Source of the DNA: Prostheceraeus crozeri
Taxonomy: Eukaryota; Platyhelminthes; Polycladida; Euryleptidae
Reading direction: 5' to 3'
Assembly (NCBI GenBank): GCA_907163375.1
Contig: CAJQUW010007739.1
Span: forward strand, 57,016-121,015
Length of the DNA stretch: 64,000 nucleotides
The position numbers were made by a program, and so were the translations under genes. Below are positions 2,494-25,392 of this stretch, piece after piece; positions within the stretch are counted from its first letter, which is position 1, and the number at the start of each line of letters is the position of its first letter. The notes under the pieces are model-generated. The model was not told where the DNA came from and ran no database searches. It saw only the letters and a program-made list of their open reading frames with translations.

Positions 2494-3562
2494 TGAGAGC
2501 TCCAGTGTGGTGAAAATTTTGAAAAATTTAAAACTTCCGAATTTCGACCTGGGACCTTTACCAAAACATTTTTCATCAAATTTCACTGACCACCCCTCCC
2601 CCCTCGTTCTGAGAAATTTCATGAAAAATGTTTTGGTGAAGGTCCCAGGTCGAAATGCCACACTTTGGAAAATTTTCAAAATTTTGTCCATACAAAGTCA
2701 CTCTGACACTTAGGATTTTTTCAGGTGAGCTCCGACCTAAAATCTTGTAAACAGCTCTAACTTTTGAACGGCTGGTCCGATTGACTCGCGGCAAAAATGT
2801 CGTCGAGCAGTTTTTTCTCCTCTTTCAAACGAGTAGCTGTAAGACAAAATCCGTCCACTAGAACCAAAGTTAGAAGATTGCTGTCGGGGGGGGGGTCAGT
2901 GAAATTTGATGAAAAATGTTTTGGTGAAGGTCCCAGGTCGAAATGACACACTTTGGAAAATTTTCAAAATTTTACCAATACAAAGTCACTCTGACACAGG
3001 ATTTTTTCAGGTGAGCTCCGATCTAAAATCTTGTAACAGCTCTAACTTTTGAACGGCTGGTCCGATTGACTCGCGGCAAAAATGTCGTCGAGCAGTTTTT
3101 TCTCCTCTTTCAAACGAGTAGCTGTAAGACAAAATCCGTCCACTAGAACCAAAGTTAGAAGATTGCTGTCGGGGGGTGGGGGGTCAGTGAAATTTGATGA
3201 AAAATGTTTTGGTGAAGGTCCCAGGTCGAAATGACACACTTTGGAAAATTTTCAAAATTTTGTCCATACAAAGTCACTCTGACACTTAGGATTTTTTCAG
3301 GTGAGTTCCGACCTAAAATCTTGTAACAGCTCTAACTTTTGAACGGCTGGTCCGATTGACTCGCGGCAAAAATGTCGTCGAGCAGTTTTTTCTCCTCTTT
3401 CAAACGAGTAGCTGTAAGACAAATCCGTCCACTAAAACCAAAGTTAGAAGATTGCTGTCGGGGGGGGGGGTCAGTGAAATTTGATGAAAAATGTTTTGGT
3501 GAAGGTCCCAGGTCAAAATGACACACTTTGGAAAATTTTCAAAATTTTACCCATACAAAGCC
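2494..3562. repeat. Left block of ~290 bp tandem satellite, with an inverted partial copy at its left edge
   Basis: Successive units begin with the same motif (cactttggaaaattttcaaa) at about 2661, 2950, 3237 and 3528, spacings of 287-291 bp. Each unit includes a poly-G tract, the text aacggctggtccgattgact, and a stretch open on the minus strand for 64-65 codons, which is a by-product of the repeat. At 2494-2600 a partial copy lies in inverted orientation, facing the array. The last unit is cut at 3562, where Polinton polymerase coding sequence begins. Confidence 0.9.
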
Positions 3563-6500
3563 TTATCAAACAACGTGTGTGTCAACGCAAAGCGGCGTCA
3601 ATCTCCGGAGGTGAAGTTGATTCTGACGATGACATCTCCTTTCCTTGCGATTTGTGCCCTCTTTCTTTTGATAGTCACTTTCAGCGATCTTCGCACAGAC
3701 TTCAACACACGCATGCAAATGATCACTACACCAACGGTACCCCTACCATCTCCCTCATTAATGTTTCACATAATAATTTAGTACGCGACTACTGCATGGA
3801 GTCCAATACTCAAATAGTAGATTTTCCTGAGTGGCTCCTTCAAAATTCTAACATTATCGAAGCGCTCTTCAACAATTTAGACAATTTTAGAATGAAGGCG
3901 CTCATCTACCTTAAACTAAAATATACTAAGATAGATTTTCAAACGGGTCAAGTGACGGAGAGAATACAGTTTCATGTTCCTTCCTCTTCCACAACCGAAG
4001 TTGTAGACTGCGAGTCTTGGCTAAATTTTCACATTCAATGTTTAAAATCAAATGTAGATAAATTCAATCAACGCGACAGCGCTCTCATTTTTGATGGTGT
4101 GGACTCAGCCATATTCAAAATTTCCCTATAAGAAAGTCATGCAGCTCGAGGCACATTTAAACTACCAAAAACGTTGTATAATAAGAAAGCTGTCATCAAT
4201 GTCGATTGTAAATCACAGTGTTTCAAATATGCAGTCCTACCCATCCTACAATATAATGATATCAACGCGCACCGAGATCGCACCTATAGCTATAGACAGT
4301 GGGAGGATGAACTAGACTTTGAAGGTTGTGATAGTAACAACATGAAAATCAAACATGTAGAAACGTTCGAAAAACATAATAAGATTAAAATTGTCGTTCA
4401 CGTGTGGGAGAAGGGGTTGAAGGGTGCCCGCTATAATTCACGTTCAACTTGTTATGAACGTGTAGTCAACCTCTTATTAGTAAAACAAGATGATAGCGAG
4501 GAATGGCACTACTGTGGTATACCCAAAATCTCTCGCTTGTACACTCACTTGGGGCACTCTAAAAGAGGTGAACATTTTGTATGCGACCGCTGCATCCGCT
4601 CCTTTTGGAGTAAAGATAAATTTGAAACTATGAATGGTGCAAGCGAGGTAAATTACAAATGGAACGCATGCCCAAAGATAAAATATTTTCACATAGGGAT
4701 AATGGTGACGAATTAAGTCCCCTGCGTGTCATTTACGCAGACATAGAATGCTACATTGATGATATCATCCACAAGCCAGCAGCCATATCCTGCTATGAAG
4801 TATGGCATGACCACTTTAGGAATAGACAAAACAAAATGCATACTTGGCAAGGTGAAGATTGCATTTCAAAATTTCTAGAATTTCTCGATAAAGCTGCTAA
4901 ATTTCAACAATCATATGATTCCCAATTGCAGCGTAAGTCACTACATATGTCAGATGAAGACAAACAAAAATTTGAAAGTTGCACATCGTGCCCTAAATGT
5001 CATAAAACGTTTGATGACGATAAAATTAAGAAAGTGCGTGATCATGATCACATCACTGGTAAATTTAGAAACGCACTCTGCTCCAAATGTAACTTTTCAC
5101 TTAGGTTGCGACGTCGTGTACTACCCGTCATTTTTCATAACTTTAAGGGCTATGACAGTCATATGCTCATAAAAGGAGGGTTGAGCCAGATGAAATCGTG
5201 GCAGTTTAATGTAATAGCGCAAACGAGAGAAAAATTCATGGCAATGACAGCAAAAGTACCAGTAGATAAAACTAAAGAAAATAAGACAGACAGTCTTCTT
5301 CGAAATAAAATTTTTAGATTTATTCCAAGTCATGTCAGCGTCACTAGCTTCTCTCGTTCGAAATCTCAAGTTTCTTCCCCATAGTCAAACTTTGAAGAAA
5401 CACTATCCAAACTTAACGGATGAAATAATCACTCGCAAAGGAGTCTTTCCCTATGCGTATTTTAGCTCAATGTCTAAACTAAATGAAACAACCCTTCCTT
5501 CCATTGACAAATTCCAAAACGATTTGACGGGTCAAGATTGTCCAGTAGAAGATTATGAACATGCTCAAGAGGCATGGTTAAAATTTGATTGTAAAACGTT
5601 TGGCGATTATATGATCGCTTACTTAGAATTAGATGTCATTTTGCTGGCTGATGTCTTTCAGGAATTTCGACGAGTGGCATTAGAAGAAGACAAATTAGAT
5701 CCTGTCCACTTTGTCAGTCTACCAGCCATGTCCTTTAAATCAGCCTTTAAAATGACTGGTGAGACCATTCATCTCTTACAAGACCCGGAGATGTATAATA
5801 TATTTGAGCGCGGAATACGCGGTGGTCTCACATTTGTAAATAAACATCATATAAAATCTGAAACAGTAGGTGATGATCATATCCACCTAAAGTACTATGA
5901 CCAAAATAATTTATGTCGCAGTTCACTGTCTAAACCACTACCTCATTCCGAGTTTAGTTGGTTAAATCAAGATGAGCTTGAGTATTACTCCAACCCTTCA
6001 AACATACTGAAGATTCCAGATGAAGGTGATTGGGGATATTATTTTGAAGTGGATTTGATTTATCCGAATAGCATTAAAAATAAAACTGCTGATTTCCCAC
6101 TCGCACCTGAATCTGGTGAAGTGACTGAAGATATGTTTTCACCATTCATGTCACAATTTCATAATAACTTAACAGAGTGTGGACAGCCAAGGTACAAACC
6201 ATGCCGCAAACTTTTACTCACCCAATATGATAAGAAAAATTATCTCGTACACTTCTGCATACTAAAATTCTATTTAGAAATGGGCATGCTTCTAAAGTCA
6301 GTTCACCGCATTATCAAATTTAGACAGAAAGCCTTCCTCAAACCCTACATAGATAGTAACAGTCAAAAACGTGCACTCGCCCAAAATAATTTTGAAAAGG
6401 ATTTATATAAATATAAGAATAACAATCTTTTCGGAAAGACCATGGAGGATGTTAGAAAACGTATGAACTACAAACTAGTCGTTGATGAACAAAAATATCA

Positions 6501-7248
6501 CAAATTGACCTCATCACCTCTTTTCATTGATAGAGACATCATCGATGAGGATCTTGTAGGTGTTAAAATGATAAAATCAGAAGTTGAGTTGTGCAAACCC
6601 ATCTATATTGGGCAAGCCGTTTTAGATTATTCCAAGCTTGAAATGTATCAACTCTTCTACAAAATATTAAAACCTTGCCCTCTCGTAAAAGTGGTTCGCT
6701 TGCTGGGTGGTGATAAAGATAGTTTCTTTTTAGGAATTACCACTCAAAAAGATTTAAATTTTAATGAAGTAGGCAAGTCATTAGAAAAATATTTCGATAC
6801 ATCTAACTACAATCCCAGTCATCCACTCTATTCCATACAGAATAAAGCCAAACTTGGTTGTTTTAAGGATGAAACAGCAGGAAAGGAAATAGATGAAATG
6901 ATTCTCCTCCGTCCTAAAATGTATTCCATGAAATTAAAAGAATGTGCAGATAGTATTAAGCGTGCTAAAGGTATATCAAAATCCATTGTTCACAAAATGA
7001 AACATCGGTCCTATAAGAAGGCCTATAAAAATAAAACGATAACGTTTGTCAATATGAAAATCTTAAAATCTCAAGTTCATACTGTGAAAACGCACACGTT
7101 CAAGAAACGAGCGCTTTCAGCATGGGAGGATAAGAGGTGTTGGATAGGACATAACACATCTCTTCCACATGGACATCCTGACACAAACATACCTCCACCC
7201 AAAAGAATAAAACTCACGCTACCACATTCAGGAGATGTATTGACATAA
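3563..7248 (+). pseudogene. polB: Polinton protein-primed DNA polymerase B (pPolB), broken
   Basis: This encodes the replicative DNA polymerase of the Polinton. Order of parts: a C2H2 zinc finger (CDLCPLSF...H...H, about 3643-3705), a conserved N-terminal domain, a zinc-knuckle region, Exo I with YADIECY (about 4737), a Cys/His exonuclease region with VRDHDHITGKF (about 5034), palm motif A region (EVDLIYP), motif B (NNLFGKTMEDVRKR) and motif C as GGDKDS, near 6708. Three breaks are visible: an in-frame TAA at 4129-4131, a frameshift between 4659 and 4716, and a second frameshift around 5290-5330 in an A/T run. The 5' end fuses directly to satellite at 3562/3563, so the true start is lost. The gene is convergent with the next gene at 7428. 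Family identity is certain; activity is not expected. Confidence 0.93.
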
Positions 7249-7406
7249 TCAACTTTAACTCAGTATTTTGATGTTGCTTTTTGTAGATATACATGGTTGT
7301 TTTATGTATCGCATGAGTTCGTTTCTTCCTTGTGAATATATGCCTACAGTCAGCCCATTCCCCCTTTATCTGTGAAAAGACTTTTTCATGCACATATTTT
7401 TATTTC

Positions 7407-7412
7407 AATAAA
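7407..7412 (+). terminator. Polyadenylation signal AATAAA after pPolB
   Basis: AATAAA lies 159 bp after the pPolB stop, in the 180 bp gap between two convergent genes. Confidence 0.4.
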
Positions 7413-7427
7413 CATATCACAATGACT

Positions 7428-8978
7428 TCACTTTGTTTTCCGAAACACTAAAGTTACGAGAGATTTAGTATCTTTCACATGGATGCACTCTTGTAAACCA
7501 TTGGTAATTTTGATAGCAATAGAGGGTATAGTTTGTTTGACGACGGGATGATAGAAAATAGATTCAAACATCTTCTCGACTATTCCATATGAAGCGTCTT
7601 TATCATGAATGAAATCACGTAAAATGTATTCTTTTTTCTCACCAACAGAAATAGGAAGAATAAAATTACTTTGAATGTAAAGGTGCTGTTCATGTTTATC
7701 AAGTGTCATTGGTGTTTCTATACCAATCGTATGCGCAGCAGTAAACACAGTTTGTAGCATTGAAAAACCAAAGAGTTTTTTCAAATTTTTACTCAATTGA
7801 CATTGAATGTCATCACCCAGTTTCAGAACAACGCGTTGATTTTTAATTGAAAACGAAATGTGGTGTGTCTTTACATCATATTTACTTTTCATCACATGCT
7901 TCAACTTCTGTTGTATATAAGGATTTACTACATAAATGAAGCTTTCAACTGTATGATATAGACGCGGCATTATATTGATAGCAACTTTAGATTCTTGGTA
8001 AGACTGGTAAATTTTCTTGATGCGATCACCATAGATGTCAACCCACCATTCATCATTAACTGAATCAGCTTTAGTGTGATATGCATGAGAAGCATACACC
8101 ACACCGCTTCCAATAATAGGGGTTGGATGTCTTACAAAATGACGCAAGGTTGGAGAGAAATAAACTGTAAGTTTGTCATTATATTTCTGAATAACCAACT
8201 TATTTTTGTCCACCATAATTTTCTCTCCATACTTCTTACCCACAGTCTCATTCCATCGTTTTACTAACTCAATAAGTGATAAAGGTTGAACACCACGCTT
8301 TTTCAAAATGATGCGTTCTTCGCATTCTACAACATCTTCATCAAATATTTTAAATTTATAATGAAATTTGTTGATTCGATTTGAATAAACTTTTTTAACA
8401 TTTGCAGTAGCAATTGACGTTAGATGTAGTCCATGACCAAAACCGAGATGTGGATAGAATTCATTATCCAACCTCAGTGTAAGACCTTTAGTAAAAGAAT
8501 GAAAGCGAAGGAACTGTCTCCCACTCCAATGATAGATAGTAAACTCATAAACTTTCTGATCCTTATTCTTCATGATGGAAGTATTACCACTGTTGAATGC
8601 CTTAATAATTTTCTCATTCCCAAATGGACCATAATAATTTGATTTTATCTGAATCCATTCATAGTTCCACTTTCCATCTGACGTTAAATTGTATGGGAAC
8701 TGGAATGCATTATTCATCGTTATTCCATCATGGGTGCGAGGAGTCAATATCATTTCTTCCAAATCATTCACATTCTGAATATTGCTATCATAGTAAATAC
8801 TAGAAACGCCAACCTCCCATTCACCTTCTAAATGTAGTGGGCGATTTAATTCTACTCGATAGTCTGATGGTTCATTTTTGGGAAATTTATTCATAGAAGC
8901 ATTACTGGGCAAGTAGATTAGAAACGAGTCCTTATTTTCACTTTCCATATTATTCACATTGGAAAAATATATTAGCAT
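7428..8978 (-). CDS. Polinton structural-type protein, copy A (intact)
   Basis: A 516-residue uninterrupted protein. It belongs with the gene at 8988-11412: both start with a SFxxxLxSNxxxxxF-type segment and carry the signature LEGEWEVGV / LNGKWEVGV about 50 residues in, and both end with a basic beta-strand-like tail (LVTLVFRKTK versus SITLHFRMKS). I know this pattern from Polinton-associated proteins of other invertebrates. Its role is not established to me; a minor capsid, vertex or fibre-type virion protein is plausible given the neighbours. Start ATG at 8978; a second ATG eleven codons in (8948) is also possible. This is one of the few genes of the element with no lesion. Confidence 0.7.
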   Translation of the reverse strand: MLIYFSNVNNMESENKDSFLIYLPSNASMNKFPKNEPSDYRVELNRPLHLEGEWEVGVSSIYYDSNIQNVNDLEEMILTPRTHDGITMNNAFQFPYNLTSDGKWNYEWIQIKSNYYGPFGNEKIIKAFNSGNTSIMKNKDQKVYEFTIYHWSGRQFLRFHSFTKGLTLRLDNEFYPHLGFGHGLHLTSIATANVKKVYSNRINKFHYKFKIFDEDVVECEERIILKKRGVQPLSLIELVKRWNETVGKKYGEKIMVDKNKLVIQKYNDKLTVYFSPTLRHFVRHPTPIIGSGVVYASHAYHTKADSVNDEWWVDIYGDRIKKIYQSYQESKVAINIMPRLYHTVESFIYVVNPYIQQKLKHVMKSKYDVKTHHISFSIKNQRVVLKLGDDIQCQLSKNLKKLFGFSMLQTVFTAAHTIGIETPMTLDKHEQHLYIQSNFILPISVGEKKEYILRDFIHDKDASYGIVEKMFESIFYHPVVKQTIPSIAIKITNGLQECIHVKDTKSLVTLVFRKTK

Positions 8979-9235
8979 ACTTTTGCATTAACTCTTCATT
9001 CGGAAATGGAGTGTGATACTTGTCACAGCATCTTTATGAAAAGGAATCAACGCACCAGCATCGTCATAAATTGCAATATCAATTTGTGGGATGTAGTTTG
9101 ATTTCAGCTTTGTATAATGCACTTTCTTGAAAGTATGCTCAGATAAAATACTGCACCTTTTTGGCTGGTATGGTATCATTGCTAGCAATGGAGCTTCAAC
9201 ATCTCCCACACGTACATCTTCACCAATATTGGAAT

Positions 9236-10254
9236 CATAGACATCGGATAACATTATTAGGACTAGACTGGACACAGCTGATTTCCCGTGGCCTTTAAAG
9301 CCGTTCGGTAGCGACATGGAAATATTGTTTGTATAAAACAATTATGACAACGAGAGAATTTAAAATTTCGATAACCACGTGTCTCTTATCAGCTGAGAGA
9401 GAGTAGAGATGAGGAGATATTGCATCGTCCATAATTGCAGACTTAAATACTCCGAATTGCCAACAGCAGAAGACATTTCATTTCACAGGTAATTGCAAAT
9501 GAACAGCCTATCTTTAATCTCTTGATAATAAAATTTTTTACGTACACACTGTTGTAATAAATCTTTTTTCATTGTACTCGGGAAAACTCGCCCTTCGCGC
9601 TCACAAGAAATGGTGTAAAATAGTGCTTTTTGCCCGAAGTGGCCAGGAAAAATCCCAGTTATTCCGGGTGCTGCTTATCTTTAGCCGGGACGCTCGAAGT
9701 TCACAAAATGATTAATGAGACGCCATATCTCAGTTCTGGTGAATAATCTGTATAAGTGATAGAGTCAGGAGTAATACCAAACCGATTATGAAGTCCATTT
9801 CTGAAAATGTTTCATTTATCTTACTGCCATGTTAATGTCTTTCTGCTTATTTCTTAGTTCGGCTTAAGAACATCTATAAAAATTTTTGCTGGAATCTTTA
9901 AGGTTGGTAATGAATTTGTCCTCTTACAATCCACTCGTACAAACACAAGCAAAAGGTTTGGTAGTGTCACACTTTTCTCGATTTCATTTTCGATCTATCT
10001 TTTCAAGATTGGAGTAATTTCAAGGCACATTATCTTGGATTTTCAAAAGAAAGCATTCTACAGCCAGAAGAAATTTAATAAAAATTTCGCTAATTTAAAA
10101 ATTGCGCTACTATTTGTTTACACAAATAGCATAGTAAAACAATTTTTCAGAATTAAAGCCACTCGGTAGCGACATCCGCTTGTGGCCATCAGCTGATAGT
10201 GTATTAAATAGGCGCTTTCCGGTCTAGTCCTAATAATGTTATCCGATGTCTATG
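9236..10254. mobile_element. Non-autonomous P-superfamily element with 8 bp target duplication
   Basis: The ends are inverted copies of about 36 bp beginning CATAGACATCGGATAACATT. Direct 8 bp repeats attggaat flank it (9228-9235 and 10255-10262). A subterminal 23 bp direct repeat with two mismatches lies at 9295-9317 and 10153-10175. The 8 bp duplication and CA-start ends fit P or hAT families. A THAP-like first exon at 9409-9488 points to the P superfamily. No further transposase coding is seen, so it is non-autonomous. Its ends differ from those of the larger P-type element at 26359-30847. Confidence 0.85.
9409..9488 (+). pseudogene. Orphan first exon of a THAP-domain transposase
   Basis: ATG at 9409 opens 26 codons beginning MRRYCIVHNC and ending near ISFHR, followed directly by the donor GTAATT at 9489. 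The CxxxxC spacing followed by SFHR is the classical start of a THAP zinc finger. No matching downstream exon is visible inside the 1019 bp element. It resembles the THAP start at 26708 in layout but is only distantly similar in sequence. Confidence 0.6.
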
Positions 10255-11447
10255 ATTGGAATATATCTGAAAATAGTTAATACGACGCGATAGTGACATG
10301 TCTGCGCTAGCTTTGGTTACAGTACCACTTTTAAAGATATTTTGATCAAAACCCAAAATGTCCATTAGAGTTTTATCCATAATTAGTTCAATACCTTTTC
10401 CATTTATAGTGAGAGACAAAACACCTTCTATTTTAGAAAATGAAATTTGTTGGTCATTAATCACTTCATTTAAATAATCTACAACCAATTTAACTGAAGT
10501 AATAATGCGAGACATCAACACTCTTGTTTCATGTAAGACACCACCAAAAGGCTCTACACACTTTCTGTATAAAGATACGACCCATTCTGTATCAAATTGA
10601 TTTGACCTTTCACATGGTAAATGTTGCATATCAAATTTTCCATGAACAGCTGCAGACCGATGTCGTAAGAACTGATGAAAATCTTTTGAACAAACTAATA
10701 CTAGATCATCATCATTTAATTTACTTATTGCAATATGATTATATGATTTGATATAAGTCAATGTTGCCACTTGTTTACCATCAACTCGAAGGAGATAATT
10801 AAATTTCTTCAAGAATGTTTCAGGAGTCATGTTTGCCTTTCTTGGCTTAATCACAATCTTCTTCACCAACGTCTTCTCATTTTTTGGAATAAGATCTACA
10901 TAATAAGCTTCCTCTCGATATATTAACTGTTTATGACCACTTGGGTGGTAATTAACGTTATAATTATCATAGCTTGTTAAGGCGCTAGCGAGGTAACCTA
11001 AATCATTTCTTAAACTTGGACTTAAACCAACAATCCAATCTTTCTCAACTACATGATGTACATAATTATGATCATCATTGTGCGGAGTAAATTGGGCAAT
11101 ATGTTTACACGCTTTATTCAAGAAATCATATATAAACTTTTTACATGATAAGAGATCTTTCTTTGGCCACTGTGGAATGTATACTCGGCAGCCCTTTTCA
11201 CATTGGTAAGCAGCTGTGCGTCTCATATTAATAGTCATCACCTCATGATCAAAAGTATAGACACAGTTGCTATGAACAAGTTGAGTGACACCCACTTCCC
11301 ACTTTCCATTTAGCTGTTGTGCATGATCAATGGGAGTAGAAAAGAGTGCGGCTCGATTACTAGCAAATCTATTTGCAGCCGCATTGCTAAGCGAAATATG
11401 ATAAAACGACATTTTGATATTGCTGATCTGCGGCTTTGCATAACATC

Positions 11448-11804
11448 ATGAAGACTTGGATTTTGGACTCTCTACAATATATCAGAGTTGATCGTAATGG
11501 AAACGTACATTTCAAAAATTCTCATGGTCATACATCAAGAGGTATTACATTAACATGGCGACAATTTGTCAACCTCAATGATATCATGAGGGATTTGGAA
11601 TATTTTGAAACATTAAGATTCATCTCCTTGGGTGATCAAGTTTGGCTTCAACATTACAGAAATGAAATTCAAATCTGCCATTCTCATTCCGCAAACTGTT
11701 TCTCATTTCGCAAATACAATTGGGAGAAGTATAGAAGATACATACATCGCTCCATCATGACATTTATTCGTCGTGAGTTCATCGCCCTACTATGCAAATC
11801 TTAA
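11448..11804 (+). CDS. PC4/p15-like single-strand DNA-binding protein, copy 1
   Basis: A protein of 118 residues from the ATG at 11448. The segment YIRVDRNGNVHFKN followed by RGITLTWRQFVNL follows the strand pattern of the PC4 (Sub1) transcriptional coactivator C-terminal domain: beta strands around a G-x-V, then GIxLTxxQWxxL, then a helix. The loop between strands is shorter than in cellular PC4. PC4 proteins bind single-stranded DNA and assist RNA polymerase II initiation. A close paralogue follows 22 bp later (11827) and then a TBP-like gene, all on the plus strand. The alternative is an unrelated small Polinton DNA-binding fold; profile comparison would decide. Confidence 0.55.
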   Translation: MKTWILDSLQYIRVDRNGNVHFKNSHGHTSRGITLTWRQFVNLNDIMRDLEYFETLRFISLGDQVWLQHYRNEIQICHSHSANCFSFRKYNWEKYRRYIHRSIMTFIRREFIALLCKS

Positions 11805-11826
11805 TCAGACATGACTACCACGCACC

Positions 11827-12477
11827 ATGAGTTGGAAATTAGATTCCCTACAACGTATTGAAACGGATCATGATCGAAACGTCTATTGCAAAGATTCAAC
11901 TGGAAATGTGAGAAGAGAGTTTGCTTTATCTTATCGTCATTTTCAATCTCTACATCATATCATGAAGGATTTGAAATACTTCTATATGAAAAGACATTCA
12001 CGTATTGGAAATCGCATCTGGTTGCGCGTCAACAAACGGCAAATTCTACTCTATCATTCCCAACTCCATACTAACTTCACATTTCATCAAGGTAGTTGGG
12101 AAAAGTATAAAAGGAAGGTACATCGCTCAATTTACTCATTTTTTCATCATGAAGCGCCATCGCTACACCATCGTCAACATTCTCCGTCGCTTCAGACTCT
12201 ACACCAAAATCGATCTCACAACATTACACCAACACCTTCCAAACAGCAAGTATTACCCGGGCTGACCTCAAATGTTAGTGGTGAAGATGAACAATTCACG
12301 GAATCTTCAACTCTTCCCAAATGGGACTGTACAGATTTGCGGCGCCCTTTCTCATTCATCGGCGCAGTCAATGCGCTTAGAGCTACAGAGACTACTACGT
12401 CGGATATGGAAGAGGGAGAGGTGTGTGATGTCGAATCTGACTGTGGACAATATGGTGATCTCTACTCAATTGAGTGA
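11827..12477 (+). CDS. PC4/p15-like protein, copy 2, with long C-terminal extension
   Basis: Residues 1 to about 112 are a tandem paralogue of the gene at 11448-11804: both share LDSLQxI, NV, IMxDLxYF and a W-E-K-Y-x-R/K pattern followed by HRSI. The frame then stays open to 12477, giving 216 residues with a Ser/Pro/His-rich linker and an acidic tail (EEGEVCDVESDCG). From 12149 on this frame overlaps the TBP-like gene in another frame, which shows clear family conservation. The extension is therefore either a genuine overlapping gene end or a fortuitously open frame. The N-terminal domain is the secure part. Confidence 0.5.
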   Translation: MSWKLDSLQRIETDHDRNVYCKDSTGNVRREFALSYRHFQSLHHIMKDLKYFYMKRHSRIGNRIWLRVNKRQILLYHSQLHTNFTFHQGSWEKYKRKVHRSIYSFFHHEAPSLHHRQHSPSLQTLHQNRSHNITPTPSKQQVLPGLTSNVSGEDEQFTESSTLPKWDCTDLRRPFSFIGAVNALRATETTTSDMEEGEVCDVESDCGQYGDLYSIE

Positions 12478-12763
12478 AAGTGTATCATTTTTGAGGATTC
12501 GTACCAGCAGTTACAATTTGTGTTATGAACCCGAACTTTTCCCTGCAGCTCTCATTAGTTGTTGGTTACCTGTGCATGTTGCAATCTTTCATAATAGTAA
12601 AGTGATCATTACTGGACTAAAATCTCATGTACAAGCAAATGTGGTCCTAGACTATCTCATCGAGTATGTACGTAGCCAGCGGATTGTAAAAAAAAAACAG
12701 TTTTTCCAACATGATGTTTTTATTTCAAATCATGATAGAACTTACAAATCATTTTTTCATTAG
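12149..12763 (+). pseudogene. TATA-box binding protein (TBP)-like gene encoded by the Polinton, one in-frame stop
   Basis: From the ATG at 12149 the frame spans 205 codons, about the length of the TBP core domain, with one in-frame TGA at 12263-12265. Both TBP repeats are visible. The first has IVNI, then KIDL, then a Y-x-P segment at the stop, then LFPNGTVQICGA. The second has VDNMV, then YEPELFPA, then IFHNSKVIITG and a final helix. YEPELFP and the IF-x-S-x-K-V-x-x-TG pattern are hallmarks of the second TBP repeat. TBP saddles onto TATA boxes and recruits polymerase II machinery. The gene overlaps the end of PC4-like copy 2 and meets the protease gene tail to tail. I know no described Polinton TBP, but I cannot check databases. 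Confidence 0.8.
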
Positions 12764-13179
12764 AGGATGGATTACATGAAAAGTTTTGAATAACATACAA
12801 ATCGAGATACATGTAAACGTTTTAAGATGAAGTACAGTACAAAAGCACCACACGTTGATGAAAGTGGATGTTGTAGTATGCGTTCATTTCGCTGATATTG
12901 ACGCGTATGTTTTCTCAACCACTGCTGTGTTGGTATATTTGGAGGTTGAGCAAGAGAGTCAAATAGTTCACCACGTCGGTCTTCTCCAATAAAGATCGCT
13001 TTCCAATGCTCACCGCCTAAATTCTGCGAATGACTGTTTAGCACAATAAAGATGGGATAGTGATTTGCTGTAGGTGGTAAGGTATCGAGCGAATAGACAT
13101 TATCGAAAGCTTTCAACGTTGCTTCGTCTGCATTACGCTGTACTTTAGTTTTAATATCGTCAGCAGTCAACCAACTCAT
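12720..13179 (-). pseudogene. PRO: Polinton cysteine protease, adenain (C5)-like, frameshifted near its end
   Basis: This would be the maturation protease that cleaves virion precursors. The catalytic layout is visible: GGEHWKAIFI (His), the acidic ELFDSL, and SSTCGAFVLYF (Cys). The primary frame stops at 12772 after 135 residues, short for the family. In the next frame the expected continuation, including NFS and NEKMI, runs to a stop at 12720. I infer a small indel in the A-run near 12820. With it, the gene ends inside the 3' end of the TBP-like gene on the other strand. It starts with ATG at 13179, next to the capsid gene stop. Confidence 0.85.
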
Positions 13180-14455
13180 TAACGATTATACTGAAGAATC
13201 ACGTCACGATACTTTGTAATTTCAATATTTGAATCGAAGACTGCATAAATTAATACATTGATCGTCTCAGGTAGTGTTCTTTTGAACGTCAAATCCAAAC
13301 GAATATTATGAGGCACGTTCGCTTGACGATAGGGTGCACTAATATCGCTGTCAGTAGTCAAATCAAATGCATAAATAGTATATCCACTCTTAAACTCTTT
13401 CATAGTCAGTCCGTTGGTGTCATCCGTATTGTAAAAGCCAAAGACATCCATAAAATCAACATAACTGCGCATAAATTGATCCGAAGCAAAATCTGGTTTG
13501 TAGGGTGGACCAGGATGACTCACACCATTTACACGTAAAGCAATTTCACTTAACTGATTGTGTTTAAAATTGAAAGGATTCTTCTTTATATTACCATTAA
13601 ATGCATCATTTTCAACCATTGCCACCATGAGGAAATTCGGTGCTTCCGATGGAAAGAGGCCATCTTTCATGAAACTCTTTTGATCTTTCGGAATTGTAAA
13701 GGTGAGAAGCTTTGTATGCTGAATGGGGTAAATGGCATTTTGGCGGTTAAGACCTTCAGCATGCCCTCTAATGACACTTGGATTCGGTACTACTCGACGA
13801 ATGTAAAGTGCAATATCTTCCACATGAATTCTAAAATTGTCAACTTTAGCAAATGCAAATAGCGCAAATTCAGGCTTATTCAATGTCAGCTTCAGTCGCA
13901 TGCTGGTATTACACAGTAAAAGCTTTGACTGTCTAAAGAAGTCTAAATTCAGCGGACCATATAGCTGACATACTTTACTATCTTTAATCATAGCAGATCG
14001 CTTTACAAAGCCACTGTTTGTTTCAGCATCAAATTTTCCTGCTTCCTCTCTGTACCATCCCATGGCTTCCATATGACTTCTTGTGCTGCTGGATGAAACT
14101 GTGATACATGATTGAAATATGATTTATAGGGATAATCGCTTTGACCACCTTCCACCTGCTGCTCTCCAATCGTTAGAGAAACATCGCGAAGTAATGTAGT
14201 CAATGGTAAATTGTTCAGTCCAACTTTATGTGTATCGTCAATAGCAGTTCCATCTGCTTGCTGAATTCTAAACCTCAAATCAACCATCGCATAACTCAAA
14301 TCTATGTAGTCATCACTACCACCAGGAATAACAAATTCAATGGGGCCAGCATTCTCAGCTGTTCGAGGATGATAATCTACAATACTTGAACTAAGAATAT
14401 CTGTCTGTATGGCTTGTTGATCAAACAAACAAAACCCGGAAGTTTTACACTCCAT
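13179..14455 (-). pseudogene. Polinton major-capsid-type protein (double jelly-roll, F54H12.2-like family), one frameshift
   Basis: The N-terminal half (14455-14003) carries IEFVIPGGSDDYIDL and LPLTTLLRDVSLTI, typical of this family. The C-terminal half (14072-13179) carries KVCQLYGPLNLDFF, NDAFNGNIKKNPFNF and EFKSGYTIYAFDLTTD, then a strand-rich ending with NVLIYAVFDSNIEI. The two frames overlap at 14003-14072, so one small indel breaks the gene there. Total length of about 425 residues fits a two-domain jelly-roll shell protein. It lies between the protease and the basic core-like protein, as expected for a virion gene block. Assignment to the major rather than another capsid role is from family knowledge. 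Confidence 0.85.
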
Positions 14456-14457
14456 GA

Positions 14458-14931
14458 TTAGAAGTTATGGCAGCGTCGTCGTTTAGCGCCTGATGAATGA
14501 TTAGAGCCTCTACGACGTTTGCGTGAATGCCTTTTGACTGAAGATCGCACTTTACCAGCTCCGCGATGTTTCCTCCTTCCTTTTTTCATTCGTTTAGGTG
14601 ATTTCTTTCCTTGAGTAACACCAGCAAAGGTCTGCTTCAATGTTTTTAAACCGCGTTCCTTCCCACGATTCAACAAACTGCTCTTAAAACTTCTACCTCT
14701 GGAAAGATCACTAGCAACATCACCAGCAAAGCCAACGGCATTACTTAAAACATTTCGTTTTAAAGATCTTCCGACATTGGATATGAGAGGTGCTACAACA
14801 GACTTCAGTGCACCAAGTATGCCACCTCCACGTTGGCGGCGAGCGCCGCTGTAAATTTGTCCTCCACTACTTACATAGGAGGGTCGTGAATAAAATGAGG
14901 CAGTTGGATTCTTAGCTCAAACCCTAAACAT
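14458..14931 (-). pseudogene. Small basic Polinton virion/core-like protein, early in-frame stop
   Basis: Reading from ATG 14931, the fifth codon is TGA (14919-14917), then the frame is open to 14458. The protein has an N-terminal Tyr/Ser segment, YSGARRQRGGGILGAL, an amphipathic glycine/alanine region, and a very basic C-terminus (KRMKKGRRKHRG, RKRRRG, AKRRRCHNF). Basic proteins with this composition next to the capsid gene are a regular part of Polintons and resemble adenovirus core proteins in character. A nucleic-acid-condensing role is inferred from composition only. Confidence 0.65.
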
Positions 14932-14954
14932 TGTTAGTTACAACTTTGCATGAA

Positions 14955-16042
14955 TCACTGTCGATCACTTAGATGAAAGATGTCGGCACGACGCATCCAA
15001 GAGTTCATGCTTGAAGGATAACCAGTCCATTTAACAAGACACCATTCTTCACCTTGCCGTTTTTTACACCGAATGATTTTCTCTACCAAATATGTTTCAC
15101 TTTCAGTGACTACCTCAATCTCATCGCGGTAAAAGCTACCCTCAATTTCTTCATTATCGTAATCTTTCAACTTGTAGGTGGTGGGAGAGTCTTTTTGATC
15201 AATCCTTGATACTGTAAATACCTCCTCTGTCCAATTCGGAAGGTACCCTTTAGCAAAAACACTCTTCACTTTTGAGATACGAACTTTATCACCAATTTTC
15301 ACATAACTTTTCACATGAGTGCGTTTACGCTGGAATGATTCGCGCACTTTATCTACATTGTCAGCATTTACATCTACTGGTCTGAGTCCAATAGAACGAT
15401 GGATAGAGTGATTGTAAGCATGGAGTGTATCTTGTAGAACCTTTGTCCAATTTTGTGTCAAGTTGGCAGTAAAATGTCGCCACAAGCGATTTTTTAATGT
15501 GCGATTAAAACGTTCAACGAGTGCAGGTTTATAGGCACTCTTTACACTAAACAACTCAATGTCATGCCTCTCAAATAATCTTCGCACATGCTGATTTTCA
15601 AACTCTTTTCCTTGATCACTCTGAATTCTTTTTGGAATCCGACCTTCTCGAAAAATAGTTTGGAATGCTTTTGCTACTCCTTTCCCTTCTTTAGTTTTTA
15701 AAGGTTGAGCCCACGCATAACGCGAGAAAATATCAATAACGGTTAAAATAAAATTATTGCCCGAGTTATGTTTTGAAATGGAGGCAACATCACACAAATC
15801 TGCTTGCCACTGTTCATCGATGTCATGAACAATATAATGGCGGGTGCGGTACTTCTTTTTCGCTTGTTTGTGGAGTGTATAGGTAGCCTGACCCTTTAAC
15901 CATCGTTTCACTTGTGATTGTGGAAGACCACTCGCTTTTGATAATTTCTTGATAGATGCAAATCCTGCGGATGTTTTACATCATAATAGATTGACTTCAA
16001 ACGTTCAGTCGATGACGACTGACTCTTTTTCCTCCTTCTCAT
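14955..16042 (-). pseudogene. INT: Polinton integrase (rve DDE) with C-terminal chromodomain, one frameshift
   Basis: Retrovirus-type integrase that would insert the element. N-terminal part: LKSIYYDVKHP, a helix-turn-helix-like region. Catalytic core: WQADLCD (first Asp), QSDQGKEF (second Asp), ALVERFNRTLK (Glu). After an SH3-like stretch, a chromodomain follows (YLVEKIIRCKKRQGEEWCLV, then KWTGYPSSMNSW). A single-base loss near 15965, just after KHP, moves the reading frame; downstream it is intact to the stop at 14955. The start is taken as the ATG at 16042, which overlaps the end of the Cys-rich ORF 16220-16005. Chromodomains probably guide insertion to marked chromatin. Confidence 0.92.
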
Positions 16043-16220
16043 CTTTTTGTTTTCTTGCCTTTCTACATTTACAACAACTACAGCATTTAGCTTTAGCGGT
16101 TTTGCGATCGTGTTCACATTGCTTAGGGGTTTCATTATGAGAGCTGGCGCAGCAAGTGCAAGTGACAACGACATTCACCTCTGGCGGCTCATTACATGGC
16201 AAGCAACACATCTGCTTCAT
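16005..16220 (-). CDS. Small cysteine-rich protein, possible zinc binder
   Basis: A 71-codon frame rich in cysteines: CCLPC near the N-terminus, CTCC, then CCSCCKCRKARK followed by a lysine/glutamate-rich tail. The spacing suggests one or two metal sites. It overlaps the first 38 bp of the integrase frame and directly follows the gene at 16222. It is short, but the cysteine pattern and compact packing argue for a real gene. No family recognised. Confidence 0.45.
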   Translation of the reverse strand: MKQMCCLPCNEPPEVNVVVTCTCCASSHNETPKQCEHDRKTAKAKCCSCCKCRKARKQKDEKEEKESVVID

Positions 16221-16221
16221 A

Positions 16222-16914
16222 TTAATAGTCTGAGAACATGTATTTCTTGGGAGGAGCAGTTTTACGTTTTCCTTTTACTTGTTTTAGTGGTGGTGTAGAT
16301 CTACGTCGAGTTCTTCCTCTTATTTGCTTAGTGAGTGTGGGAGGGGATGTAGCAGGTGACGTCTTAAACCAATTTGTTGGCATTTTCATCGTCTGAGGCA
16401 TTGGAGTAGTAGCCACTGTTGAATCAAATTCTTTCAATGTCTCATTATTCAAAGCAAATTTTGGTACATTATGCTTTTTCAATAGTTTACGAAAGTATGA
16501 CCAACCAGGTGGAACATAGCCCTGACGGCGCTTTCTACGTGTCGCATACTGAATCAAGTCTTCATAACGTGAAGCATCAATCACTTTATTTTCATCTGTA
16601 ATGATTTCTCCTCTATCATTTACATTGAGATGGGGTTCAATACTATTGAAAAGAGATATGGCATGTGCGCGAGATGCTAAAGGTGTTGCAGACGATATAG
16701 AGTCACGCATCTTATTCTTCAAGCTTTTCAATTGCTCAACAGTTTCCGATTGTAATAATACAGCACGATGTGGATCTTAGATGTGAACATTTTGCTGATA
16801 ATCTATTTCTTTCCTATACATTTGATTTGCAAGAGGTTGCTTTACTTGCTGCATGGCAGTCAATTGTACATATTCATCCTGAGGAATGACAATCATGCGA
16901 GAATAAGAACTCAT
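16222..16914 (-). pseudogene. Conserved Polinton protein of unknown function, one in-frame stop
   Basis: From ATG 16914 the frame is open except for a TAA at 16779-16777, then continues to 16222 (about 230 codons). N-terminal: PQDEYVQLTAMQQ. Middle: charged helices (VEQLKSLKNKM). Then IDASRYEDLIQYATRRKRR, VPPGWSYFRKLLKKHNVP and a basic Pro/Thr-rich tail. The pattern (V/I)xSxxxDLIxxA followed by PxGWxxFxxxL is one that I associate with Polinton proteins next to the ATPase. Its ATG overlaps the ATPase stop by 4 bp. Confidence 0.6.
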
Positions 16915-17527
16915 AGTTTGTAGATAATCATGGGAGTTTTCAAAATATCACTTCGAAATCTAAATTCTTCCGGACACTCTTGCGTAAAGTCAATGAATAA
17001 GTAACCGTATGGTTTTTCAGTAGCTGCTTGAAAAATTTCAATTAAGGCTTTTGATCCTCTGGGTGCAACTTGTCGCGCTAAAATTTCAAATTGACTTTTA
17101 TCTCGCGGATTCTTGAAAATAGCATAATAGTGTGTATTCAGGTTTCGTGTACGAGCTTCTTTTCCATCAGGAAACAAATTTTGTTTGATATAGATGATAA
17201 AGCACCTTTTATGATGTGCTGCGCGAGTGAACATATCTGTAACATCTTTTGAATTCTAACTTTCTTTTAATAAATCATCCAATACAACAACATCATTAGA
17301 CTGAAGTTTATCCACTGGAATAATTCCTTCATGTCGAATAAAGTTGCGACTTTGCAATTCCTGAAACAGCGACGGTTGATAAATACCATAACACCAAATC
17401 ACCGATTGATAGGTTCCTTAAACAACTCCCTTCTTTTATCCAATAAATTCACCGTGAAAACAGTTTTACCTGCATGAGATGGACCTGATACAGTCAGAAC
17501 TTTATCACATTGAAGTCTGAAATCCAT
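16911..17527 (-). pseudogene. ATP: Polinton FtsK/HerA-type genome-packaging ATPase, broken twice
   Basis: This would power DNA packaging into capsids. Start ATG 17527. Walker A is visible as GPSHAGKT shortly after the start; Walker B as DVVVLDDLLKE. The C-terminal part (17234-16911) has QNLFPDGKEARTRNLN, FKNPRDKSQ, LARQ and EKPYGYLFIDF, all hallmarks of the family. Two breaks: a frameshift near 17408-17420 and an in-frame TAG around 17256-17260, six codons after Walker B. It shares a 4 bp overlap with the next gene. Confidence 0.88.
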
Positions 17528-17558
17528 TATAATACTTTGAGATTCAACATTTGCATAA

Positions 17559-17924
17559 TTAACGTCTAGAGCCAAAGATATTACCCAATACGTTGCCCAC
17601 GATAGGAGCTAGCATGGGTAGTAACGCTGGAAGGAAACCGCCCTTTTGTGTTAGAGTTTCCCTCTTTCTTTGAAGGGTGACTTTAGGATTGGAGATGAAA
17701 CGCAATTTCGTAGCATATCGCTTAAGTAACTTTCGTTGTTTTGGTGCTAATTTCTTCGTCCTCAACTTTCTCACATGAGAAATAATTTCACGAATGAATT
17801 TATCGTTAGCATGTCGTATAGCATTGTATCGCTGATTTGCTTTCATTCGTTGGAGAGCTTGAATGGCTGAAGAAAACTATGAAGACTTTTGTCTTTTACG
17901 TTTCGTCATTTTACGTTTCGCCAT
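17559..17924 (-). pseudogene. Small basic protein with hydrophobic C-terminus (virion-type), one in-frame stop
   Basis: From ATG 17924 the N-terminus is MAKRKMTKRKRQKSS, then TAG (17879-17877), then the frame continues for over 100 codons to 17559. The main body is strongly basic and helical; the C-terminus switches to a glycine-rich hydrophobic segment, GGFLPALLPMLAPIVGNVLG. A basic head with a membrane-active tail is typical of a Polinton small virion protein, and resembles adenovirus minor core or lytic peptides in character. Role inferred. Confidence 0.65.
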
Positions 17925-17975
17925 TTTTCGTGTTAGTCTTTGCTAAAACCTATCTTTACCACATTTGCATAGGTA

Positions 17976-18299
17976 CTAACTATTGCGGCATAAGTGCCAC
18001 TCGAAATGAGCAATATCACAGTGGTTACATTTGCAAAGTTGAATGCAATTACGTATGAAACAGCGTTGACAAAAAGCGTGCTTACATCTCTTGATGATGC
18101 GCTTTTCATTTCCATCCTTTCGCTTACATACATCACAACACATAGTTTCACCGTTACTGATGTCTATAGCAAGTCTTTTTGAAGATATGAATTTGCTAGC
18201 CTTTTCTAAATAATAGACGCATGTACAGAAGGAATATACTTCGAGAGTGAGCAGACATAGCTCGAAAACCAGTTGTGCTACAATCAAGTACCACTGCAT
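17976..18299 (-). CDS. Transmembrane RING-type zinc finger protein
   Basis: About 107 residues. Residues 1-30 are hydrophobic (YLIVAQLVFELCLLTLEVYS), a likely membrane anchor. The C-terminal half holds a RING-type ligand order: CDVC, then CKHAFCQRC, then CKCNHC. Membrane-anchored RING proteins are often ubiquitin ligases and viral ones often redirect host proteins; here that is inference. No lesion. The start is the ATG at 18299, three bases after the preceding gene's stop. Confidence 0.6.
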   Translation of the reverse strand: MQWYLIVAQLVFELCLLTLEVYSFCTCVYYLEKASKFISSKRLAIDISNGETMCCDVCKRKDGNEKRIIKRCKHAFCQRCFIRNCIQLCKCNHCDIAHFEWHLCRNS

Positions 18300-18301
18300 T
18301 T

Positions 18302-18712
18302 TCAATTTTTCTTTATGGAAAGTTGAATGTGAATATCTGAAATCGCTTCAATCACTAGACTGCTACCATGATGGTTAAATGCGTTAAGACGTTCAGCAAT
18401 TTTTATCATATGTCTTTTAAAAAATTCTTCGGGGTGATCTACTTATTCCATTGAATAAGAAGCAAAATGGAAAGAGCGACTTTCCACCTCTTCCTTTCCA
18501 AAATGATTTAACTTAATTTTCGCAACTAATCGCGCCATGACAATGCTATCAGAGAATGTATTCATTAACTCTAGAAATAGAGTGCTAGCATCATCGACCA
18601 CTGCTTCGATGTCGGTCTCATCTTTATGAAAATTTATCACATAATCTTGAACAGCTCCTATTAAACTTTGTCTATGAAAATGTAATGTTCCGCAGTCGTT
18701 TGAGAAACACAT
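18302..18712 (-). pseudogene. Stand-alone homologue of the pPolB N-terminal domain, one in-frame stop
   Basis: The frame from ATG 18712 runs to a TAA at 18443-18445 and then on, still in frame, to 18302. Its middle and end (MARLVAKIKLNHFGKEEV, then RLNAFNHHGSSLVIEAISD) follow the same pattern as the N-terminal region of this element's own polymerase (MKALIYLKLKYTKIDF, then KFNQRDSALIFDGVDS at 3890-4120). I read it as a duplicated, separately encoded copy of that domain, perhaps an accessory or terminal-protein-like factor. The alternative is a fragment of another polymerase, but no polymerase motifs follow. Confidence 0.55.
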
Positions 18713-18799
18713 GATCGCCCTTTATCTAACCCATCCACTGCATGAAAACAACAACTCTTCTCATAGTAACATTTATTGAATAATGGTAACAAGCATGCA

Positions 18800-19329
18800 T
18801 TATAAATCAATGGTTTGAAACAGATAAAATAGATACAGCTGGTAACTATCAGACAGCGAGCAATGATAACCATACAGGACTTTGGCAGTGCTGAGGTAAG
18901 GAGGAAAGAAGCATTGGTTATGAACGTAGCTACTACAACGAACAGACAAATAGGAACACACAAATCCTTAAAACGTTTCGTGACTTCATGGTAGTGTTGA
19001 TTCACTCTACTATCCCAAGGCGGGAGCAAAATATCATCAATGATTAGATTGGGAAATACATTCCTCTCCTTACCAGGATTATTACAAAAGATGCGTATAA
19101 CATTGAAAGCAGCTAACCATCGTTTAAAGTCAATAAGAAGAGCACTCTCACAAGAAAAGCCATAGTCTTGCAAATATTTCAGATTAAGTCCATGAATGTG
19201 TTTTCTCGTCCATTGATCAACATTGGGATTGCAGTTGGCATGTTGATGATAGACACTGACAATCTGATATGTCCAATTGTTCATAGCAATAGCACTGAGC
19301 TCCTGTACAGGTTCACCCTCACAATCCAT
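18800..19329 (-). pseudogene. DEDDh-type 3'-5' exonuclease-like Polinton protein, one frameshift
   Basis: Starts at ATG 19329 with MDCEGEPVQELSAI: Asp-x-Glu is the first motif of RNase H-fold exonucleases. KHIHGLNLKYL (residues 43-53) and NNPGKE (83-88) follow. Near 18950 the frame shifts; in the correct frame the final motif YHCSLSD (His, then Asp five residues on) and LYLFYLF are found, ending at 18800. The order fits the DEDDh superfamily and I associate this gene with Polintons. It may proofread or process DNA or RNA; the role is inferred. The alternative frame stays open to 18661 but lacks the last motif. Confidence 0.65.
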
Positions 19330-19381
19330 AAAAATGATGATAGAAGCCTAAAACGGAAATTTACACATCTAAGGAAACGTT

Positions 19382-19582
19382 CTATAACATATTGCAAAAT
19401 GAAGAATTACATCGATGCTTTTCACGACAAAATACGCAAATGATATGATGGCAACGAAGAAGTAAAATGTATCTAATAAGACCACGTCTACGACACTCAA
19501 AGCACATAAGCGAATTGTCATAGGGTAAAGTTAGGAAAGGACTAGTAATTCTCCTTCTTTGATTTGCGTTTTGATGCAGCAT
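19382..19582 (-). CDS. Small RING-like zinc finger protein
   Basis: 66 residues from the ATG at 19582. The C-terminal half has paired ligands: CFEC, then CHHIICVFC, then CNSSFC. This RING-like order matches the better example at 17976-18299, so the element has two such proteins. The start overlaps the 3' end of the spliced gene (19542) by 41 bp. No lesion visible. Short, so moderate confidence. Confidence 0.5.
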   Translation of the reverse strand: MLHQNANQRRRITSPFLTLPYDNSLMCFECRRRGLIRYILLLRCHHIICVFCREKHRCNSSFCNML

Positions 19583-20316
19583 TCTTCTCCGACTTGCGCT
19601 TCGTACCACTGCTGTTAAGGATTTGATCAATTATGTCGTCCACGTTGGGTGGTTTTGGAATATATAGGATGGATTCCATATGCATAGAGAGAGAGGCTAT
19701 TTTATTATCCTTGTGACGACCATAATATAGCCCATTCACTTTGAAAAGGATATCCCAAGTACCTTCTCCGAGCTCATCGCATGTGATGGGTGTTGAATGA
19801 TCTCCCTCCTTCTTATAGTAGGTGCACCAATGTGATACCGGTAGGCAAATGTGATTACCATCCCAAATCTTTCTATAGGGAGTATCCTTGTCATCTCTCG
19901 CCTTCCACTCTTGAGCAAGAGGAGTAGGAATGTCCATATTTAATGTCACGTACTCCTCAATAATATCAAGTTGGTGGCGAATGTACGGACTCACGGGGAT
20001 CAGTATGTAGTCCCCATACTGATTGTGCATTATCTTGACATCCGTGGAAGGGAGCATTCCCGTTTGGAGTACTACGCTATGATCGTCATAACGCAAGACT
20101 TGTTTAAATTTACGCTGTAGCGGTGTAGGATTATGTACCTTGGTTGTTTCTTCAACTGGCCTCAGTTGTAGATGATCTGATCGTAGCAAACCTTGTAACG
20201 TTTGACCGCCATTTTGTCCTACTAGTGCAGCAGATGGAGTAGATGCCTGAAAATCAAAAAGATTGTATTAAGTTTACGTTCAAGGGAGGAGAGGGAGGAA
20301 AGTAGCGACTTACCAT
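19542..20316 (-). CDS. Spliced Polinton gene; possible OB-fold/DNA-binding protein
   Basis: Exon 1 is just the ATG (20316-20314), followed by GTAAGT; the intron is 20313-20247 (67 bp), ending tgattttcag. Exon 2 (20246-19542) continues in frame for 234 codons: a Ser/Gly-rich start, LQTGMLPSTDVKI, YGDYILIPVSPYI, then GTWDILFKVNGLYYGRHK and SLSMHMESILYIP, and a basic tail (KRKSEKNAASKRKSKK). The strand-rich FKVNGLYYGxHK...SLS pattern resembles single-strand DNA-binding OB-folds in replication cassettes, but I cannot confirm this. A TATA box lies at 20421-20430. The coding sequence is intact. Confidence 0.6.
20247..20313 (-). other. 67 bp spliceosomal intron in a Polinton gene
   Basis: On the minus strand the donor is ATG|GTAAGT (20313) and the acceptor tgattttCAG|G (20247). 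Exon 2 is open throughout and joins the ATG in frame. Its length matches the 60 bp introns inferred at 388-447 and 55203-55262. Confidence 0.65.
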
Positions 20317-21475: not shown

Positions 21476-21679
21476 AGTCCACCCTCCCAACCTGGCCGGC
21501 ACACCACGCCAACCTGGACAGCACATCACCGCGCGCTACGACGGCCGGCCAGAGGGGGGGGACGTCAGACTCGAAGCAACACGGCGGCACACCACGACCG
21601 ACTCGACGGACAGGAGGGGGGGGACGTCAGCGACGGCGGCCATCTTGCGCGGTCCAGTGGTGGAGTTTTGCTTACTACT

Positions 21680-22489: not shown

Positions 22490-22497
22490 AAAAACAG

Positions 22498-25385: not shown

Positions 25386-25392
25386 GGAGACG

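Follow-up and report, generated by a model that had tools for sequence, protein, structure and literature searches.

A two-repeat TATA-binding protein encoded by Polintons of the flatworm Prostheceraeus crozeri

Polintons in the genome of Prostheceraeus crozeri carry a TATA-binding protein (TBP) of their own, a two-repeat saddle that is specific to Polintons and has had a long evolution inside these elements. In cells, TBP marks the sites at which the reading of genes begins. Polintons are transposons and putative viruses at once, and their lineage is frequently placed close to the root of many eukaryotic DNA viruses. To our knowledge, there is no account of how Polintons express their genes. 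The gene came to light as an interrupted copy in the window (the whole stretch of 64,000 nucleotides analysed here), and it is practically certain that the 12149-12763 frame codes for a two-repeat TBP belonging to the element. We favour the reading, with a probability of about 0.6, that this protein is an element-encoded promoter factor, predicted to recruit host TFIIB and RNA polymerase II (Pol II) and to escape the regulators of TBP.

An earlier note on this DNA stated that TBP-like genes are known from large DNA viruses, and they are indeed described in the accessible part of PMC7221094 and, for mirusviruses, in that of PMC10132985. Its statement that none had been described in Polintons is consistent with the open-licence PMC literature, in whose titles and abstracts we found no report of TBP in these elements; several papers on Polintons and their kin do not mention TATA or TBP anywhere in the main text.

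Identity, fold and place in the element

The frame runs on the + strand from an ATG at 12149 to a stop ending at 12763, and the single in-frame TGA reported in the earlier note was found at 12263-12265. The pieces on either side of this codon were searched separately against Pfam. The 165-residue piece after it (12266-12760) matches the TBP profile PF00352 in two stretches (1.1e-11, 44.8 bits, cut-off 22.9), and the piece before it gives a match under the cut-off (0.016). TBPs or TBP fusions make up 35 of the 36 PDB sequences listed at E <= 1, including an entry named ECU04_1440, and the best match is the TBP of M. jannaschii (5.3e-13). The motifs read by the earlier note in the two repeats, YEPELFPA, IFHNSKVIITG and LFPNGTVQICGA, all occur in the translation. 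The window copy has a second lesion, as it runs beyond the stop point after codon 181 that is used by 38 of 47 other copies.

The fold was modelled on P0001, an intact metagenomic relative of 184 residues, with 94 family members, and not on the interrupted window copy. P0001 is 83% identical to the post-TGA piece over 80% of that piece and scores 72.8 bits against PF00352 (cut-off 22.9). Its model (mean pLDDT 93.1, pTM 0.84) shows both TBP repeats with their usual succession of strands and helices, arranged in tandem in one saddle. The model has 44 PDB matches at E <= 0.001, every one of them a chain of TBP or of a TBP fusion, with TM scores of 0.66-0.80 by the model's length. Profile search and structure prediction thus both return strong matches to TBP, which bears out the two-repeat TBP-like protein first proposed from the letters alone.

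The gene lies in an element whose features are collected in Table 1. It has an RVE integrase of the Polinton/Maverick type, and its genes span 3478-20267, a size compatible with a Polinton. The flanks hold repeats of about 288 bp in the same orientation (2613-3560 and 20989-21475), beside which there are shorter inverted matches (2476-2596). The earlier note had placed the TBP gene between two Polinton genes with no spacer. Element genes do flank it on both sides, and even more closely: the + strand frame upstream shares about 330 nt with it, and the protease-like gene on its downstream side is convergent with it.

Table 1. Features of the element around the TBP-like gene (positions in the window)
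Feature	Position	Strand	Evidence and remarks
DNA-polymerase-like region in pieces, with endonuclease-VII-type zinc domain	3478..7248	+	pieces 35-64% identical to family-B locus L079
Two paralogous long frames with a small frame between	7428..11445	-	same order in families C and D
ORFa, tandem paralogue of ORFb	11427..11804	+	start codon ~11448; 40% identity to ORFb
ORFb, paralogue of ORFa	11815..12477	+	start codon ~11827; 3' part shares sequence with the TBP gene, in a different frame
Proposed TATA box TATAAAAGG	12106..12114	+	43 nt ahead of the start codon of TBP, inside the ORFb coding sequence
TBP-like gene, interrupted copy	12149..12763	+	PF00352 1.1e-11 after the TGA; other copies uninterrupted
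Ulp1/C48-like cysteine protease	12772..13185	-	convergent with TBP; PF02902 0.0016, 18.8 bits, slightly under the cut-off of 20.7
Putative major capsid protein	13179..14464	-	two overlapping frames in the window copy; same place in family A copies and in families C and D
RVE integrase with chromodomain	14955..15980	-	PF00665 5.3e-11, PF00385 4.8e-07
Packaging-ATPase-like pieces	16911..17560	-	Walker A GPSHAGKT, different frames of the window copy; motifs by eye

Some of these labels are our own assignments. We take the polymerase-like region to be a candidate for the family-B DNA polymerase typical of Polintons from exonuclease and DTDS-type motifs read by eye; it has no polymerase match in Pfam, PHROG, NCBIfam or PDB sequences, and its frame 4626-5381 matches the endonuclease-VII-type profile PF02945 (3.7e-07). 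Such a zinc domain within a polymerase-like frame also occurs at L079 (5526-8507). The capsid label, for the double jelly-roll protein typical of Polintons, is likewise presumptive: the frame has no match in Pfam, NCBIfam or PDB sequences, and we regard a weak PHROG match to a transcriptional regulator (0.0047) as chance. GPSHAGKT is presumably the Walker A motif of an FtsK-type packaging ATPase, the neighbouring motifs having been read by eye. ORFa and ORFb resemble a PC4-like protein by eye, a reading we do not adopt, with no support in Pfam or PDB and a poor model (pLDDT 48); their PDB match to 4dou (1e-4) is taken as chance since no single stretch is above threshold. At 17562-17876 there is a weak match, under the cut-off, to PF05829 (adenovirus core protein X, 0.0007), and directly to the right of the element (21446-25989) piggyBac transposase-like and LINE reverse transcriptase-like frames were recognised by eye.

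Copies, families and descent

We searched the source genome (2.05 Gb) with the post-TGA piece and obtained 150 scored matches that are 93-100% identical to it, the first being the window itself; another 16191 looser candidates were only partly scored, so that 150 is a lower bound. The 48 scored places that were fetched, the window's own included, are best-scoring protein matches. In all 48, ORFa, ORFb, TBP and the putative capsid gene have identical order and orientation, and the protease was detected in 47. The TBP frame has 181 codons to the stop in 38 of the 47 other copies; of the remaining nine, three have a one-base gap, three run beyond the usual stop and three stop early. Being drawn from the best-scoring protein matches, this sample favours intact frames and low pN in TBP.

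A search of the genome with PF00352 gave 150 scored places, and we examined 30 loci, of which 4 are host loci (two TBP exons, and one TBPL1-type place matched twice) and 26 are of the element type. The latter fall into four families: 13 loci belong to family A (the type of the window), 9 to B, 3 to C and 1 to D, the TBPs of B, C and D being about 40% identical to the window's. The 30 loci overlap with the 48 family A loci described above (L014 and L065 are one copy), and L079, L080, L081 and L082 are longer stretches of L076, L067, L053 and L058, respectively. By tblastn (E <= 1e-3), every one of the 26 matches some other gene of the window element; in the nine family B loci the match is to ORFa/ORFb only, partly within the stretch that overlaps TBP. 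Family C has the gene order of the window (polymerase, long frames, ORFb, TBP, protease, capsid, integrase), with TBPs 40-43% and putative capsids 49-53% identical to the window's, and ORFa was not detected in it. Family D (L058/L082) likewise has the polymerase, the long frames, TBP, the protease, the capsid and the integrase, but we detected no ORFa or ORFb in it; repeat 1 of its TBP seems to contain extra residues. The gene is thus found at the same place in the 48 near-copies and also in families C and D, with putative capsids of about 50% identity to the window's.

Family B is arranged differently, with ORFb and TBP followed by a polymerase that lies tail-to-tail with TBP. It has at least 150 TBP copies, 96-100% identical, and 147 of the 150 scored lack an internal stop; L095 and L096 are further loci of this family. 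Among the 124 polymerase matches listed, 56 of the 150 copies have one within 10 kb, and in 55 of these 56 the two genes are tail-to-tail, with gaps of 0.7-4.2 kb. The surroundings of two copies, 15.5 kb for one and 9.9 kb for the other, gave no match to the integrase or the putative capsid. Family B may lack virion genes or have a different gene order, and we do not claim it as a capsid-less element since its ends were not found. This pairing with the polymerase, as well as the lack of capsid and integrase matches in the 15.5 kb, would suit a TBP fold that serves replication, integration or packaging of the element's DNA, as a bender at its ends or origins, instead of transcription. We consider such a role unlikely, as the glutamates that contact TFIIB, kept in 98 of 99 sequences (see below), would be needless for a pure DNA bender.

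Signs of purifying selection on the element TBP come from small numbers and from a sample picked by TBP. Pooled over the 41 gapless family A copies among the 47, pN/pS is 0.385 for TBP, 0.263 for the putative capsid gene, 0.416 for ORFa and 0.213 for ORFb outside the overlap. The putative capsid gene, which was not sampled by TBP similarity, behaves like TBP in this respect, the numbers being small. Variable sites shared by at least three copies number 3, 1 and 10 at TBP codon positions 1, 2 and 3 (8 synonymous, 6 not), and singleton sites 15, 20 and 30. The ORFb frame is open across the first part of TBP in families A, B and C (window 12149-12477; L079 4136-4476; L081 from about 4398), and this open tail has a similar PFSF/SFSF stretch in all three. 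However, pN/pS in the overlap is 1.052 in the ORFb frame versus 0.299 in the TBP frame (same 41 copies), and we therefore do not claim the tail as a real overlapping gene.

Relatives are also found outside this genome. A single-sequence search of metagenomic proteins gave 12 relatives of the TBP, and a nine-sequence profile gave 377 at E <= 0.001, on contigs of up to 20 kb; 5 of the 120 relatives listed are already labelled TBP by their source. A piece of the putative capsid gene (13182-14123) has 296 homologues. We compared exact contig sizes between the best 124 TBP relatives (of 377) and the best 120 capsid relatives (of 296): five sizes are common to both among the matches listed, and three of the common sizes are of at least 5 kb, where 0.18 would be expected from jittered sizes. 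In 26 of the 124 TBP proteins the record reaches well upstream of the usual start, and 17 of these 26 extensions contain xIK or xIN, by eye. Many extensions resemble a reading of the window's ORFb region in the TBP frame, so ORFb probably lies upstream there too. The hundreds of environmental TBP relatives are probably genes of such elements. No relative was found in the contigs of GTDB genomes, and the IMG/VR scans with the window TBP, the TBP family profiles and the putative capsid gave none either. When searched with canonical TBPs, IMG/VR gave 12 other viral TBPs, on contigs of 17-175 kb (L083-L094). One capsid relative (P0126), with 86% identity to that of the window, has been assigned to a metagenome bin of Pseudomonadota and is probably a misplaced eukaryotic or element contig.

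The tree has 55 rows, 40 of them element TBPs and 15 others (human, host and 7z7n TBP; host TBPL1; two archaeal TBPs; nine IMG/VR TBPs); it omits L085 and L088, which nearly duplicate rows already in it, and L093, whose frame is short. All 40 element rows lie together, set off by a long-stemmed 100/100 branch from host TBP, the TBPL1-type protein and viral TBPs. The tree is unrooted and five of its rows are long, and with no root inferred we limit the claim to one old lineage that is not a recent host capture. Six of the nine IMG/VR TBPs group weakly with an archaeal TBP.

The earlier note had assigned the gene to the element and not to a neighbouring host gene, and both synteny (48 of 48) and tree support this. 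The fold is the same as that of host TBP, and the genome has its own TBP and a TBPL1-type gene from which a captured copy or a neighbouring gene or pseudogene could have come (a pair that points to an animal host, as TBPL1 occurs in all metazoans according to the accessible part of PMC3142196). Yet the host TBP is a typical one on contig C9306, the 40 element rows stand behind their 100/100 branch and long stem, and the 150 copies scored in the genome have element neighbours in all 48 cases fetched. Tree and synteny thus rule out a host gene, whose probability we regard as vanishingly small.

Residue pattern and upstream TATA motif

We aligned 99 element sequences (95 metagenomic and 4 from the source genome) with human TBP, whose 339-residue numbering is used here. 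Conservation over the whole family may be lower than in this survey, as the 95 metagenomic rows were chosen from 124 proteins that are the best of 377. The DNA-facing residues of repeat 2 are kept: N257, V259 and F288 in 99 of 99, F305 in 98 of 98 and T313 in 97 of 98. In repeat 1, N167 (88 of the 88 aligned) and F214 (99/99) are kept, and the first intercalating phenylalanine, F197, is replaced by proline in 96 of 98, V169 by methionine or leucine in 91 of 92, and T222 in all 99 (leucine or methionine in 98, phenylalanine in one). Three of the four intercalating phenylalanines are thus present where a canonical TBP has all four, and the replacement of F197, V169 and T222 means that canonical TATA binding may be weakened.

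Of the positions that we take to face TFIIA (A184, N189, E191 and R205), A184 is replaced by histidine, tyrosine or phenylalanine in 91 of 98, E191 by lysine in 78 of 98, N189 is kept in 26 of 94 and R205 lacks an aligned counterpart in 75 of 99. The basic helix residues are changed as well (K236 to glutamate in 84 of 99, R231 to glutamate in 73 of 99, R235 kept in 13 of 99). E284 and E286 are glutamate in 98 of 99 each, and the accessible part of PMC7221094 ties these two residues to the binding of TFIIB. Pfam scans of 23 window frames, some of them broken, recognised no TFIIB family, and a diverged TFIIB would escape Pfam.

The Polinton protein resembles eukaryotic and archaeal TBPs in its two repeats, saddle fold, repeat-2 DNA contacts and TFIIB-contact glutamates, but is only 20-26% identical to them in structural alignments, its repeat 1 lacks F197, V169 and T222, and its TFIIA-facing and basic helix residues are mostly changed. 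With the TBPs of dsDNA viruses, as presented in the accessible part of PMC7221094, it shares the two lobes, the DNA-contacting phenylalanines and the loss of regulator contacts in the N-lobe. However, in those viruses the first TFIIB position is about 40% conserved and almost all of them encode TFIIB (none was found in poxviruses), whereas the Polinton glutamates are nearly invariant and the element has no TFIIB that Pfam recognises. Mirusviruses, 59% of whose genomes have a TBP according to the part of PMC10132985 available, also carry it in a virus lineage, but by their description they are much larger and have another capsid type; TATA-binding proteins are also mentioned for mirusvirus-like elements in the part of PMC10675990 available. 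Animal TBPL1/TRF2 is a diverged TBP paralogue too; from what the accessible part of PMC3142196 states, it keeps the binding of TFIIA and TFIIB and not that of TATA, so that the residue pattern of the Polinton TBP is the opposite for TFIIA and DNA.

Upstream of the gene there is a TATA motif, TATAAAAGG. Its distance to the start codon of TBP is 43 nt in families A and B, and about 46 nt in family C. Of the 48 family A loci (L001-L048), 46 contain the 9-mer; among the loci found with PF00352 it occurs in 13 of 13 of family A, 7 of 9 of B, 2 of 3 of C and 0 of 1 of D. It falls in ORFb codons for Tyr-Lys-Arg, and AGG makes up 6% of the arginine codons in A, 23% in B and 2% in C, which gives a joint chance of about 2.5e-5 for these codons in the three families if these are independent. 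As the uncommon AGG is used in all three, the DNA, and not the peptide alone, appears to be conserved; the families share descent, however, and the box may be kept partly by kinship. We looked for TATAWA within 130 nt upstream of gene starts and found it at 1 of the 11 examined in the window, where a twelfth could not be placed, and at 2 of 7 in one family B copy; the sequences scanned show no enrichment of TATAAAAR. With so few gene starts having TATAWA, the other promoters of the element are not obviously of the TATA type.

The same observations bear on two other readings of the protein. It could be a decoy that occupies TATA boxes or TFIIB and interferes with host transcription or defence: a competitor could well keep the TFIIB-facing residues and the DNA-facing residues of repeat 2 and lose most of the TFIIA-facing ones. 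We find this quite unlikely, given that a broad shut-off of the host would presumably be of little gain to a high-copy heritable element and that the TATA box upstream of the TBP gene is conserved. The protein could also recruit the Pol III factors Brf1/Brf2 instead of TFIIB, as these use the same TBP glutamate according to the accessible part of PMC7221094; the genes of the element are protein-coding, though, and we hold this to be very improbable.

Proposed role and its meaning

On the promoter-factor reading, the host machinery would first transcribe the TBP gene from its own TATA box. The Polinton TBP would then bind and bend AT-rich promoter DNA of the element, mainly via the conserved repeat 2, and its conserved glutamate stirrup would recruit host TFIIB and RNA polymerase II. 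Since the surface for TFIIA and other regulators is changed, the protein would escape host control of TBP, remaining uncontrolled by TFIIA and the other factors that grip repeat 1. DNA binding, recruitment of TFIIB and the effect on transcription are the parts of this reading that we infer. A more specific version, to which we would give slightly short of even odds, is a half-orthogonal initiation in which the element's TBP sets the choice of Pol II promoters, the handshake with TFIIB is kept, the controls by TFIIA and the host are shed, and the element has neither an RNA polymerase nor a TFIIB of its own. If true, this system would differ from that of large DNA viruses, in which TBP and TFIIB come as a pair.

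With a TBP encoded by the element itself, the expression of Polinton genes becomes open to concrete tests, and the Polinton viral lineage gains an initiation factor. The protein would also be a natural TBP whose contacts with TFIIB and TFIIA have been separated by evolution. The conservation of the gene suggests that Polintons themselves steer the gene-reading machinery of their hosts.
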